Assembly: GCA_001874305.1 (NCBI GenBank)
Contig: MPCU01000007.1
Location: 124,001 to 188,000, forward strand
Origin: Bacteriovorax sp. MedPE-SWde
GTDB taxonomy: Bacteria > Bdellovibrionota > Bacteriovoracia > Bacteriovoracales > Bacteriovoracaceae
Length of the DNA: 64,000 bases
Reading direction: 5' to 3'
Shown here: positions 9,098-24,607 of the stretch, piece by piece
Layout of the letters: every line of letters begins with the position of its first letter
Numbering within the stretch: the stretch's first letter is position 1
The notes under the pieces: generated by a model
What the model was told of the DNA's origin: nothing
The model's database searches: none
The model's input: the letters and a program-made list of their open reading frames with translations, nothing else
Made by a program: the position numbers and the translations under genes

Positions 9098-9238
9098 AAA
9101 GGACAGGACGAATTAGACACTATTCCCCCCTCCCCCTGTTAAGTAGAAAAAACTTTATGATACAACTATAGACACGTTTATAGTTTATTTCTCAGATGGA
9201 AGAGATTGCTGTTTTGGATGGTGGATTTTCTTAGTTAG
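9098..9238 (+). repeat. structured interspersed repeat, copy A (full)
   Basis: Full-length member of a family also found at 13607, 15930 and 18677. Paired segments: P1 GACAGG (9102-9107) with CCTGTT (9135-9140); P2 hairpin AACTATAGA (9164-9172), loop CACG, TTTATAGTT (9177-9185); P3 GGATGGT (9216-9222) with a degenerate CCCTCC just before CCTGTT. P1 differs from copies B and C by a compensatory T-A to C-G change. The 3' CTTAGTTAG (9230-9238) is matched by CTAACTAAG at 9293-9301. Its left border touches a possible 12-codon minus-strand gene end (9059-9097); an IS3 start lies downstream. Confidence 0.75.
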
Positions 9239-9310
9239 TAATATCTTCAATCAAGATTTTGTTTACAACCCCCATTTCGAGTTGACGCTTTTCTAACTAA
9301 GGAAAAGTAC

Positions 9311-9379
9311 ATGAGAAGAAAGCGTAGAACTTTCACGAAAGAACAAAGAATGATGATTATTTACTCCAAGATCATATAA
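9311..9379 (+). mobile_element. IS3-family transposase OrfA remnant (N-terminus only)
   Basis: ATG at 9311 opens a 22-codon frame, MRRKRRTFTKEQRMMIIYSK..., which is the typical start of IS3-family OrfA proteins (KRRTFTKE). It stops at once and no DDE region follows, so only a scrap of an insertion sequence remains. It sits 72 bp past repeat copy A, which raises the question whether the repeat derives from an IS end. Confidence 0.5.
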
Positions 9380-10804: not shown

Positions 10805-11009
10805 TATCGATTAATGGTAAGAAAAAGAAGGGCCGACTGTTTTCCTCGATCTACTTTTGGAGTTAGATGGAGAGGTTAAGAATAGGAAACTATCTTACTC
10901 AATACTAGTGGAGAATAGTTTCGCCATTCAGTAGGATACTCCGATGTACTTCTTTGTTAGAAAAGATAATATAAAACTTCATGGAGAAATAGAGAGATTT
11001 ATACAATAA
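10805..11009 (+). pseudogene. decayed paralogue of the solute-binding protein at 19285-20085
   Basis: RKRRADCFPRS, then after a one-base shift LELDGEVKNRKLSYSI, an in-frame stop after FAIQ, and DTPMYFFVRKDNIKLHGEIER matches the C-terminal half of the protein encoded on the minus strand at 19285-20085 almost residue by residue. A frameshift, a stop and loss of the N-terminal half show it is dead. It suggests duplication of that gene followed by decay. The ~155 bp downstream, to the next start, hold nothing recognisable. Confidence 0.8.
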
Positions 11010-12513: not shown

Positions 12514-12589
12514 CTATCCATAATCCTTTAATACAGTTTTCTTTGCAACAACATTCAATGTCACTTTCGGAAGAAAAGAACCAAAATCA
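12514..12589 (-). pseudogene. C-terminal gene fragment fused to repeat copy F
   Basis: The minus-strand frame reads DDFGSFLPKVTLNVVAKK then TVLKDYG and stop, ordinary protein-like sequence with no beginning. Its upstream border is exactly where repeat copy F breaks off. The parent family is not recognised. Confidence 0.45.
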
Positions 12590-12660
12590 TCTATAGTTGT
12601 ATTACAAAGCTTCTTGGAATTAATAGGGGGTCGTTTGAAAAGAGTGCCTAATTCTCCCTA
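12590..12660 (-). repeat. structured repeat, copy F (5' half, minus strand)
   Basis: Read on the minus strand, GAATTAGGCACTCTTTTCAA, CCCCTATTAATT, then CTTTGTAATACAACTATAGA follow the family consensus. The similarity stops in the first arm of the P2 hairpin, where a gene fragment begins. The 3' half, including the most conserved core, is missing. It is the only copy in this orientation. The ~115 bp between it and the next gene hold nothing recognisable. Confidence 0.7.
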
Positions 12661-13606: not shown

Positions 13607-13725
13607 AAAGGATAGGACGAATTAGTTACTCATTTCAAACCATCCCCTATTAATTATAAATTCGTTTATAATTAATTTCTTAGATGGAAGAGACTGCTGT
13701 TTTGGACGGTAGATCATCTTAGTTA
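13607..13725 (+). repeat. structured interspersed repeat, copy B (shorter form)
   Basis: P1 GATAGG (13611-13616) pairs with CCTATT (13646-13651). P2 is a perfect 11-bp hairpin with a TTCG loop (13650-13675). P3 ACCATCC (13639-13645) pairs with GGACGGT (13704-13710) with one mismatch. This copy lacks the ~25-base insert (AAACTTTATG...) that A, C and D carry before P2. The 3' core and the terminal CTTAGTTAG are kept. Confidence 0.78.
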
Positions 13726-15929: not shown

Positions 15930-16072
15930 AAAGGATAGGACGAATTAGACACTCTTTTCAATCCATCCCCTATTAATTATAAAAAACTTTATGGTACAAC
16001 TATAGACTCGTTTATAGTTTATTTCTTAGATGGAAGAGATTGCTGTTTTGGATGGTGCATTTTCTTAGTTAA
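15930..16072 (+). repeat. structured interspersed repeat, copy C (full)
   Basis: P1 GATAGG (15934-15939) with CCTATT (15969-15974). P2 AACTATAGA (15998-16006), loop CTCG, TTTATAGTT (16011-16019). P3 CCATCC (15963-15968) with GGATGG (16050-16055). The CCATCC and CCTATT strands are directly adjacent, so P1 and P3 would form a pseudoknot. The core GAAGAGATTGCTGTTTTGG and the end TTCTTAGTTA are identical to copies A and D. Confidence 0.8.
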
Positions 16073-18569: not shown

Positions 18570-18676
18570 TTATTTAACTAAAGTTTTATCCCATTCATCA
18601 GGTAATTCAAATAAAAATACTTCTCGATTAGCTAAGTTTCCACCCCAGTTACTTGTGACATATATTCTATTACCAA
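18570..18676 (-). pseudogene. C-terminal gene fragment abutting repeat copy D
   Basis: The minus-strand frame reads FGNRIYVTSNWGGNLANREV, then FLFELPDEWDKTLVK and stop. The N-terminal part is gone: the frame enters repeat copy D. NRIYVTSNWG is reminiscent of beta-propeller proteins but is too short to assign. Confidence 0.5.
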
Positions 18677-18820
18677 AAAGGATAGTAAGAATTTGATACT
18701 CTTTTCAAAACCATCCCCTATTAAATACAAATAAACTTTATGATATAATTATAGATGAATTTGAGCTTTTTATTTTTGATGGAAGAGATTGCTGTTTTGG
18801 ATGGTGAATTTTCTTAGTTA
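18677..18820 (+). repeat. structured interspersed repeat, copy D (full, P2 weakened)
   Basis: P1 GATAG (18681-18685) against CCTATT (18717-18722) is one pair shorter than in copies B and C. P3 ACCATCC (18710-18716) pairs perfectly with GGATGGT (18799-18805). The P2 arms (AATTATAGA and TTTGAGCTT) pair only partly. The 3' core is identical to A and C, ending TTCTTAGTTA. It lies between two truncated genes. Confidence 0.75.
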
Positions 18821-18825
18821 ATGAG

Positions 18826-19218
18826 TTGGCGATAACAAATAGTAAACCAATACCTGGTGATAAATTAATTCTCGTTGGGTTTGGAAACGGAAGAGCATCA
18901 ACGACAAAATATGATGTTTATGTTTCTAATGATGACGATTGTGTTTACCTATCTGGAAATAAGAACGTAAAAATAGGCAAAGATATTACTAAGAATACGT
19001 TCTTTATTGGATGCGATACTGTTCAGGGAGATTCCGGATCTGCAGTAATAAATAGAGTTACAGGCGAATTAATTGGACTCTACTTTGGTATGGCAAACCC
19101 GGACATGAAGAACCCTCTAACTTCAGAGGAGATTTATCAAAACCTAGGAACAGACTTCCTTGAGTTTGAAACAAATTCTTCTTGGGCAATAGACATTCGT
19201 ACTATTCCCTTAAACTAA
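18826..19218 (+). pseudogene. 5'-truncated trypsin-like serine protease
   Basis: Only the C-terminal half of a chymotrypsin-fold protease is present: VQGDSGSAVINRVTGELIGLYFG with the catalytic serine (residue 70 of the remaining frame). The His and Asp of the triad and the signal peptide are missing. The frame opens with TTG six bases after repeat copy D, with no ribosome site, so the repeat marks the breakpoint. Compare the intact proteases at 51709-53106 and 59309-60025. Confidence 0.7.
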
Positions 19219-19284: not shown

Positions 19285-20085
19285 TTAATCTATTTTATAA
19301 ATTCTCCTATTCTTATGATTATATTTCTTTAGGCTATCTTTATAGTATCTGTTAAATAACTTATCAAACTTTCCATTCTCGATTATCTTCTTTAGAGATC
19401 GCTCTATTTCTGCGTGAAGTTTAGTATTGTTTTTTCTGACAAAGAAGTACATCGGAGTATTATATTGGATGGCAAAGGTATCTTCTGCTATTATTGAATA
19501 TGATAACTTCTTGTTCTTTATCTCTCCATCTAGTTCTAATATAGAGCGAGGAAAACAGTCGGCCCTTCTCTTTCTCAGCATACTAAACAAGTTTTTATAC
19601 TCACCTTCTACAACATCTAGATTGGCCGCCCTTAAATGTCTTACGTCTGGCCACCCTCTTCCTTGAACATATCTCAATGATTTATATGATTTTTCTTTTA
19701 GTTTCTTATAAAATGAACTCTTATGTTTTTCTAAAATTAAGCAAACCCTTAGCCCTATTAAGTTTTTCATAATTGGAATCTTTATTGCCTTCAGTTTTTT
19801 CTCTCTATCTTCACTATTCATTGACCACAAAATATCAATATAACCAGATTCGAGTTTATTCATAATCCTTAGAGAATTCATGCGTTTTCGTGTCTTCTTT
19901 AACTTAAACATATTGTCCACGGACTTTGATAAGTTTATGTCATCTATTATAAGATTCATAAGATCATAGAAATAGTTTAGCCTTTCATCATTTTTTGAAT
20001 TGGGGGATGGGACGGTTATATCTTTTGAATGAGAGCTGAGCGAGATGAACAAACACATTAATATAGTGATAATTTTTATTTTCAT
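19285..20085 (-). CDS. periplasmic solute-binding protein (SBP_bac_3-like)
   Basis: 266 residues with a signal peptide ending near SHSKD. The layout matches family-3 amino-acid-type binding proteins that lack an ABC transporter nearby: an early lobe with RIMNKLESGYIDILWSM, a middle segment VQGRGWPDVRHLRAANLDVVEG, and the late pattern YNTPMYFFVRKNNTKLHAEIE then FDKLFNRYYKD. The protein is Lys/Arg-rich. It may be a stand-alone sensor rather than a transporter part. A decayed partial copy lies at 10805-11009. Confidence 0.72.
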   Translation of the reverse strand: MKIKIITILMCLFISLSSHSKDITVPSPNSKNDERLNYFYDLMNLIIDDINLSKSVDNMFKLKKTRKRMNSLRIMNKLESGYIDILWSMNSEDREKKLKAIKIPIMKNLIGLRVCLILEKHKSSFYKKLKEKSYKSLRYVQGRGWPDVRHLRAANLDVVEGEYKNLFSMLRKRRADCFPRSILELDGEIKNKKLSYSIIAEDTFAIQYNTPMYFFVRKNNTKLHAEIERSLKKIIENGKFDKLFNRYYKDSLKKYNHKNRRIYKID

Positions 20086-23011: not shown

Positions 23012-24607
23012 ATGGACACAACAAGACGATGCGCATTCGCCATAATTAGTCACCCGGATGCGGGTAAGACAACAATGACAGAGAAACTACTTTGGTTTGG
23101 GCAAGTTGTACGCGAAGTCGGAATGGTTAAGTCCAAAAAAGGGAATTTTGCGAAATCTGACTGGATGGAAATGGAAAAAGAAAGAGGTATCTCGATTACT
23201 TCTTCTGTTATGTCATTTCCGTATAATGAAAGAGCAATGCACCTTCTTGATACTCCAGGGCACAAGGACTTCTCTGAAGATACATATAGAACTCTTACTG
23301 CGGTAGAAAGTGTTCTTATGATGATTGACTCGGCCAAGGGTGTTGAGGAACAAACGAAGAAACTCATGGAAGTATGTCGTATGAGAGATACTCCTATTGT
23401 TACATTTATGAATAAGTTTGACCGTGACTCTTTAGATGCTTTTGAGCTTATAGACAACGTAGAACAAAATTGTTCAATTTCATGTGCGCCAATGACTTGG
23501 CCTATTGGAAGTGGTGTTGATTTTAAAGGTGTCTATGACTTTAGGACAAAGCAGATTGTAAGTTTTGAAGACGCAGAAAACCCACTTGAGCCACGAATTA
23601 TTAATGCCAGTGATTTAGATTCTCCAGAGATTCTTGAATACGTTGGTGAAGCTCTACTAGATAAGCTTAAAGAAGATTTAGAAATGGTTGAAGGCTGCAT
23701 GCCAGAATTCGATGAAGAAGAATTCCTAGCAGGGATTCAAACACCGGTATTCTTTGGTTCGGCCCTTAATAACTTTGGTGTAAAAGAGATTCTTGATATG
23801 GTTTCTGCACACGCACCAGGACCTCAATCTCGAGAAGTAAAATTATTTCCATATGATGATACAAGTGAACTAAGAGAAGTATCTCCAGAAGAAAAGAAGT
23901 TTTCAGGTTTCATCTTTAAGATTCAGGCCAACATGGATAAGAAGCACAGAGATAGAGTTGCTTTCATGCGTGTTTGTTCAGGTGTCTTTAGAAGAGGTCA
24001 AAAGATATTTCATACAAGAACAGAGAAAGAAGTAAAAGTTGCAACTCCTCTAATCTTTCAAGCACAAGATAGAGAGATAACAGAATACGCTCTACCAGGT
24101 GATATTATCGGTCTACATGATTCTGGAAAGTATCAGATTGGTGATACATTCTCAGAGGGTGAGAAAATCACATTCACTGGTATTCCTAATTTTGCTCCGG
24201 AAATTTTTCAACGTGTACTCTTAAAAGATCCTTTAAAAGGTAAGCAACTTGATAAAGGCCTTCAGCAGTTGTCTGAAGAAGGGACAGTTCAGCTCTTCAG
24301 AAGACACTCATCAAGTGACAAGATCCTTGGTGCCGTTGGTGTTCTTCAATTTGAAGTAGTTAAGAGAAGACTTGAAGACGAATATAATGTTCGTGGTGAA
24401 TATGAATCATTCCCTTTTAATGGTGTGAGATGGCTAAAATTCACTGATGAAAAAGAAAAAGATCTCTTCATTACAAAAAACTCAATAAATATCGCTTACG
24501 ACAATAAAAATAGGCCATGTTTCATCGTGAGAAGTGAATGGGACCTCAAACTTGTGGCGGAAAAATTTCCCGATGTCGAGTTCTACAAAAACAGTGATTT
24601 CAGATAG
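23012..24607 (+). CDS. prfC: peptide chain release factor 3 (RF3)
   Basis: Translational GTPase that recycles RF1/RF2 from the ribosome after termination. G1 SHPDAGKTTMTEK, switch II DTPGHKDFSEDTYRTL (the DFSEDTYR signature separates RF3 from EF-G) and G4 NKFDRD are intact. G2 lies in MEMEKERGISITSSVM. The C-terminal domains include LQFEVVKRRLEDEY. Its 531 residues are standard. AAGGA precedes the ATG. It is followed after 99 bp by a single-domain receiver gene, with no terminator seen between, so they may be co-transcribed. Confidence 0.96.
   Translation: MDTTRRCAFAIISHPDAGKTTMTEKLLWFGQVVREVGMVKSKKGNFAKSDWMEMEKERGISITSSVMSFPYNERAMHLLDTPGHKDFSEDTYRTLTAVESVLMMIDSAKGVEEQTKKLMEVCRMRDTPIVTFMNKFDRDSLDAFELIDNVEQNCSISCAPMTWPIGSGVDFKGVYDFRTKQIVSFEDAENPLEPRIINASDLDSPEILEYVGEALLDKLKEDLEMVEGCMPEFDEEEFLAGIQTPVFFGSALNNFGVKEILDMVSAHAPGPQSREVKLFPYDDTSELREVSPEEKKFSGFIFKIQANMDKKHRDRVAFMRVCSGVFRRGQKIFHTRTEKEVKVATPLIFQAQDREITEYALPGDIIGLHDSGKYQIGDTFSEGEKITFTGIPNFAPEIFQRVLLKDPLKGKQLDKGLQQLSEEGTVQLFRRHSSSDKILGAVGVLQFEVVKRRLEDEYNVRGEYESFPFNGVRWLKFTDEKEKDLFITKNSINIAYDNKNRPCFIVRSEWDLKLVAEKFPDVEFYKNSDFR

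Follow-up and report, generated by a model that had tools for sequence, protein, structure and literature searches.

A repeat of about 140 bases in a Bacteriovorax genome is probably a leftover end of an IS91-type rolling-circle transposon, not a derivative of its IS3 neighbour

IS91-type miniatures and the repeat family of the window genome

In the model described for IS91, the right end of the element serves as the origin and the left end as the terminator, and one-ended events yield either right-end fragments or flanking DNA that is carried along (PMC3189936; similarly PMC9330008 and PMC13393415, as far as the available parts of these sources go). For IS801 of P. syringae, a trap assay recovered right-end miniatures of 229, 360 and 679 nt as well as longer insertions with adjacent DNA, and the targets were tetranucleotides of the CAAG/GAAC type (available part of PMC3189936). 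We compared with these systems a repeat family found in a 64,000-nt stretch of Bacteriovorax DNA (the window). We conclude, with a probability of roughly 0.85, that the repeat, about 140 bases long, is a leftover end of an IS91-type (rolling-circle) jumping gene, and that its parent was not the IS3 element next to one of its copies. The copies in the window are as follows.

9102-9237, plus strand: repeat copy A, 136 nt, profile E 4e-19; its left end is taken to be the IS91-type origin end
12569-12660, minus strand: copy E, a partial, degenerate origin-end half in opposite orientation, profile E 9e-4
13611-13725, plus strand: repeat copy B, 115 nt, internally deleted; AAAG before the left end
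15934-16071, plus strand: repeat copy C, 138 nt; AAAG before the left end
18681-18820, plus strand: repeat copy D, 140 nt, left end diverged; AAAG before the left end

Copy A likewise has AAAG on its left (9098-9101), presumably the tetranucleotide that served as target. The genome as a whole gave eight repeat matches with E values from 7e-71 to 8e-14, far beyond chance: copies A-D and the partial, inverted copy E on the window contig, two copies on contig C2 that lie 690 bp apart, and one on contig C10; a doubtful ninth copy on contig C14 is weak and partial (profile E 0.5). The right border TTAGTTA, which the original prediction had described as common to the copies, was indeed present in all four of copies A-D, and three more full copies elsewhere in the genome have TTAGTTA, TTAGCCA and TTAGATA at this border. 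The IS91 transposase (Y2_Tnp) was absent from the window genome by family search and by protein search, so that mobility of the copies there cannot be tied to an enzyme, and with no such transposase detectable the eight diverged copies are probably immobile relics.

Several observations concern the surroundings of these copies. Copy D (flanks at 18579-19218) has on one side, on the minus strand, what looks like the C-terminal fragment of a gene and, on its right side, a trypsin-domain ORF that lacks the N-terminal part; such a setting between two apparently truncated genes would be expected from a joining of random fragments at this place. A 185-nt stretch at 10814-11003 also recurs, inverted and with 80% identity, at 19393-19581, and so a fragment of the gene at 19285-20085 sits between copies A and B.

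The copy on C10 raised the question of whether the repeat is a REPIN-like palindromic repeat moved by one of the genome's two Y1 (RAYT/IS200-like) transposases, as one of the two Y1_Tnp genes lies about 1.1 kb from that copy, the other being on contig C6. We consider this highly improbable and rejected it, since the flanks of the C10 Y1 gene carry other motifs and the repeat, at 115-140 nt, has no convincing palindrome and folds mostly like shuffled sequence. Read by eye, an inverted motif of its own (GTGCCATGC...TTTGGTTTCGC), unrelated to the repeat, lies on both sides of the C10 gene; at the two Y1 loci that we inspected, with flanking motifs read at C10, no repeat copies were seen as Y1 element ends, and the terminus of the repeat matches IS91-type elements instead. 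The same REP-like motif, GTGCCATGC...TTTGGTTTCGC, also adjoins the repeat copy of this contig on its right side (region L011 6480-8230).

The IS3 relic beside copy A

Because an IS3-type OrfA start follows copy A, the original prediction had proposed that the repeat is either a MITE-like derivative of an IS left end or a structured leader that controls a transposase. The OrfA start proved genuine (ORF MRRKRRTFTKEQRMMIIYSKII, closed by a stop codon, at 9311-9379), and its leader was matched in IS3 elements of related genomes, which places the following feature beside the repeat.

9260-9379, plus strand: IS3-family left-end relic, with the end TGTTTACAACCCCC at 9260 and an OrfA start (9311-9379) broken after 22 codons

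A gap of 22 nt separates the end of copy A (9237) from the start of the relic (9260). The IS3 stretch was matched in 8/129 family genomes at E <= 0.01, the window's own genome counted: 9253-9354 matched genome G048 at 82% identity, 9250-9341 matched G015 at 76% and 9260-9314 matched G026 at 81%, and the other four matches spanned just 19-32 nt. Downstream of the leader, G048 and G026 encode OrfA (PF01527) and OrfB (rve domains), while no OrfA/OrfB pair was seen in the ORF list of G015. The window's own genome contains no PF01527 match and one rve match, in a single 404-aa ORF at C9:490558.

The idea that the repeat derives from, or acts as a leader of, this IS3-family element draws on the true left-end relic 22 nt past copy A, on the pairing of CTTAGTTAG with CTAACTAAG, and on a slight likeness, seen by eye, between the IS3 end (AGTAGACACTTTTC) and the left part of the repeat (TTAGACACTCTTTTC). 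The same-leader IS3 elements of G048 and G026, however, start with TGTTYRTAACCCCC and have right ends that match weakly (16-19 of 30), and the borders of the repeat do not match these ends. The repeat profile reached a best E of only 2.1 against these elements, compared with 8e-21 for copy A in the same search, and a single motif match with 2 mismatches at locus L189 was not confirmed by the repeat profile. As IS3 elements with the same leader carry nothing like the repeat alongside, we conclude that the repeat is not IS3-derived; with PF01527 missing from the window genome, an IS3 origin seems to us most improbable. The IS3 relic is separate from the repeat and unrelated to copy A. As the case against an IS3 origin, the original prediction had named full-length IS3 elements that have unrelated ends and lack this leader. 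The elements found agree with this in part: their ends are unlike the repeat, yet they do have the leader, because it belongs to the IS3 element itself.

The complementarity between CTTAGTTAG (9230-9238) and CTAACTAAG (9293-9301), from which the proposal had started, is exact as described. At least one 9-nt inverted repeat was also present in 18.75% of 2000 first-order Markov shuffles of 9098-9379 and in 98/452 real windows of 282 nt, and CTAACTAAG, which lies within 150 nt past copy A, is missing from the corresponding position of copies B, C and D. The 9-nt pairing is thus no better than chance and is unique to copy A, and CTAACTAAG or a diverged form of it is part of the IS3 leader, not of the repeat. 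Other signs of a structured element were scarce: there was no Rfam match in the window at gathering scores, seven of the eight RNA folds of copies A-D (both strands) fell within 1.4 s.d. of shuffles, with copy B on the plus strand as the sole outlier (z -2.4), and a promoter scan at copy A returned one promoter-like site against 1.5 expected by chance, together with a terminator-like site on the minus strand (9402-9384), outside the repeat. With pairing at chance level and confined to copy A, folds that are mostly shuffle-like and a null promoter scan, the structured transposase leader was unsupported. The more general suggestion of a non-autonomous derivative of an IS end held up as the most likely reading, but neither the IS3 parent nor the choice of end did, as the end concerned belongs to an IS91-family element and is its 3' (origin) end, on the side away from the transposase.

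A probable IS91-type parent element

The left 30 nt of the repeat recur in related genomes. A pattern search matched 15/129 family genomes at <= 1 mismatch, with clusters in some; since a reversed control pattern also gave single matches in several genomes, single pattern matches mean little. Both exact borders occurred together in Halobacteriovorax marinus 36_234_T64 (G124), in Bacteriovorax sp. DB6_IX (G004), which belongs to the genus of the window genome, and in a Guaymas MAG labelled Epsilonproteobacteria (G011), in a paired-border scan that accepts exact borders only and might not cover the genome of the window itself. Viral contigs gave no exact border-pattern match.

Read in reverse complement, the left end of the repeat (AAGGATAGGACRAATTAG) equals the 3' terminus of the phylum's IS91-family (HUH, Y2_Tnp) transposons. 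In G124, the whole repeat lies 36 nt behind a transposase gene, as follows, and this copy is identical to four others of the same array.

L057 7941-9359: G124 transposase (Y2_Tnp and Zn_Tnp_IS91)
L057 9395-9532: repeat

The layout is the same in genome G044, where a gene with Y2_Tnp and Zn_Tnp_IS91 lies directly upstream of that genome's own version of the repeat. The repeat profile matches the first ~22 nt alone of this version (E 0.04), the remainder being different sequence, and a second copy is cut by the contig end.

The IS91-type transposase protein had matches in 69/368 genomes of the phylum. We fetched 30 transposase loci, of which 24 had at least 250 nt downstream and six were too short. 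The motif TAATTYGTCCTATMCTT was found downstream of the transposase in 15 of these 24 (<= 4 mismatches, shuffle frequency <= 0.05), with 0 mismatches in G124 and G044, and was not significant in the other nine; upstream of the transposase, the best matches had 5-8 mismatches and never fewer than 5. At one locus (L117) the significant match lies 117 nt past the stop and is not obviously at the terminus. G169 and G111 each have a copy of one element, and the two show no difference as far as GGCTATACTT, beyond which they diverge; this places the 3' end of the element there. The left end of the repeat is identical to the G124 terminus and near-identical to termini of other elements. Judged by sequence, the left end of the repeat is thus an IS91-type 3' terminus, because the motif lies downstream of the transposases and because divergence begins exactly past it. 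The aligned transposases share an HxH motif and a conserved RY in 8/8; they have one conserved tyrosine in the region and no obvious YxxxY pair.

No 5' (ter) end matching the right end of the miniature was found, and the sole mapped 5' end, that of G169/G111, differs from it. By eye, an origin-like motif (GCCTAATTTCGGTCTTAA) is located downstream of several transposase genes, and the G044 miniature starts right behind it; our guess is that this motif acts as a terminator. The repeat is also present where there is no transposase, and its left and right ends are then each fixed. Of the 40 copies with a readable flank, 35 have NAAG immediately before the left end (CAAG in six). This fits targets of the CAAG/GAAC type, although NAAG could instead be part of the element; no miniature yielded an empty site.

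We consider it very probable that the repeat is a non-autonomous miniature of an IS91-family HUH rolling-circle transposon, derived from its 3' end (the origin, oriIS). By analogy with the known biology of IS91 and IS801, the transposase would nick at the origin end, and rolling-circle synthesis would run inward from there. A stop at a pseudo-terminator just behind the transposase gene would produce a miniature, and a stop further on in neighbouring DNA would produce captured genes plus a miniature; the product would then insert beside an NAAG/CTTN tetranucleotide. In the least certain step, later units could insert between the retained tetranucleotide and the old origin end, in the same orientation each time.

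One-way arrays upstream of prfC and comparison with known systems

A long array of the repeat lies in G124. A profile made from 32 copies, of which G124 itself supplied 11, gave 25 matches at E < 0.001 within the 61 kb from 1360.6 to 1421.6 kb, all 25 in one direction, and no matches at E < 0.001 in the reversed sequence. The array lies upstream of prfC, as do five of the eight copies in the window genome.

23012-24607, plus strand: prfC (release factor RF3), a conserved locus marker that is not part of the element

Repeats were found upstream of prfC in three genomes (the window genome, G124 and G126), in the same direction relative to prfC. The window genome has four full copies in one direction and a partial copy opposed to them at this locus, G126 has two full copies in one direction and one partial copy opposed, and in G011 the copies share one orientation within each of four contigs. 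In 12 further genomes there was no profile match at E <= 1 in the stretch fetched upstream of prfC (~6 kb in G004, 15-19 kb in the other 11), so that the prfC location is common to three of the 15 genomes looked at and not to the whole family. No window ORF of at least 100 aa in the region before prfC had a counterpart in these 12 stretches at E <= 1e-8, so that the place is variable.

Other features of the G124 array deserve mention. About 340 nt that include the prfC promoter region and first codons recur inside the array (L056 16839-17177 and L058 4257-4596, 96% identical), with a weaker prfC 5' piece at L057 5526-5721 (83%); the second stretch suggests that prfC-adjacent DNA was captured or that an element was once inserted in the 5' end of prfC. 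The contents of the array (L057 6219-6722, 6955-7585 and 10255-11572) include a zeta-toxin-like kinase (PF06414). They also include an HTH_3 protein beside a 98-aa ORF with no Pfam match, an arrangement that resembles a toxin-antitoxin pair, and ORFs without a Pfam match that carry what we take to be an Rhs-core motif. In G044, two copies of its own version bracket ~2.26 kb with a truncated flgE, plus flgD and fliK, at a GC content of 51%, compared with 41% for the rest of the contig. Foreign capture of this flagellar piece is likely, with a chimeric contig in the draft genome as a possible alternative.

Such arrays resemble those of integrons, whose attC sites have the consensus core boxes RYYYAAC and GTTRRRY. 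We therefore weighed the explanation that the repeats are attC-type sites between which a tyrosine recombinase (IntI) shuffles gene cassettes. The single orientation of all 25 H. marinus copies (E < 0.001) over 61 kb, the uniform orientation within each of the four G011 contigs, and the exact tandem duplication of a 982-bp unit (cassette plus repeat) in G124 all agree with this explanation. Unequal crossing-over between repeats, however, explains the tandem copy equally well; the integron integrase model TIGR02249 was over its cut-off in none of eight genomes; the borders of the repeat, read by eye, are AGGATAGG...TTAGGTA and not RYYYAAC...GTTRRRY; and the left end of the repeat is a HUH transposon terminus. 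An integron origin is thus very unlikely. Tyrosine recombinases were present in all nine genomes searched, and the sole one reported within the G124 array is a fragment. This fragment (L057 9529-9717, beside an array repeat) and another in the window genome (L067 10973-11171, on C14) share 79% DNA identity. Also on C14 (L067 6925-10123), the weak partial repeat copy is flanked by a HipA-domain gene, which is accompanied by a small HTH-like ORF, and by a phage-type integrase of 378 aa.

Returning to the IS91-type origin end, the tetranucleotide next to each such end would stay available, so that one-way arrays would build up; we infer that the arrays grow in this way, by tetranucleotide reuse at the origin end. 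More tentatively, and with the odds in our view well against it, a HUH (IS91-type) transposase might use its own origin-end miniatures as cassette borders in Halobacteriovorax and relatives, moving one or more genes plus an origin end as a unit and stacking such units one way at a favoured chromosomal place upstream of prfC, as a rolling-circle counterpart of the integron that forms large arrays with no tyrosine recombinase.

For the window itself the result is modest, as it holds degenerate copies and probably no enzyme. Movement of IS91 origin-end miniatures was shown in one plant pathogen, and here they form a many-copy family in predatory bacteria. The 25 one-way copies over 61 kb in H. 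marinus suggest that rolling-circle transposition can assemble integron-like arrays; if this is true, some arrays set aside as integron-like although they lack an integrase could have arisen in a different manner, and one way in which predatory bacteria acquire foreign DNA becomes open to testing. We found no report of arrays of this kind, or of IS91 elements in Halobacteriovorax, in the open-licence PMC literature, a partial record that gives no proof of absence.

The repeat shares with the right-end miniatures of IS801 its nature as a short origin-end fragment with no transposase, its presumed position next to target tetranucleotides related to CAAG/GAAC, and parents that can carry neighbouring DNA. 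It differs in being 115-140 nt long, diverged and multicopy, in having a constant inner border, and in its occurrence in marine predatory bacteria. The IS801 miniatures were seen to move, whereas the repeat is known from its sequence alone; and the available part of the IS801 source reports no one-way arrays like that of 25 copies found here (all comparisons with the available part of PMC3189936). The HUH transposase, the oriIS and terIS ends, the rolling-circle model and the co-mobilisation of adjacent genes are common to ISCR elements, as far as the available parts of PMC13393415 and PMC9330008 describe them; unlike ISCR, however, the repeated unit here is the origin end only, not a whole ISCR, and an outward promoter was unsupported at copy A. 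With integron cassette arrays the arrays share same-direction repeats, one to a few genes apart, at a fixed chromosomal place, but no integron integrase was over the cut-off in eight genomes, the borders are transposon ends, and the DNA bracketed in G044 is part of a flagellar gene cluster, in truncated form. The miniature itself is thus of a known sort, an IS91 origin end, and it is the one-way array organisation in the relatives that is unusual.
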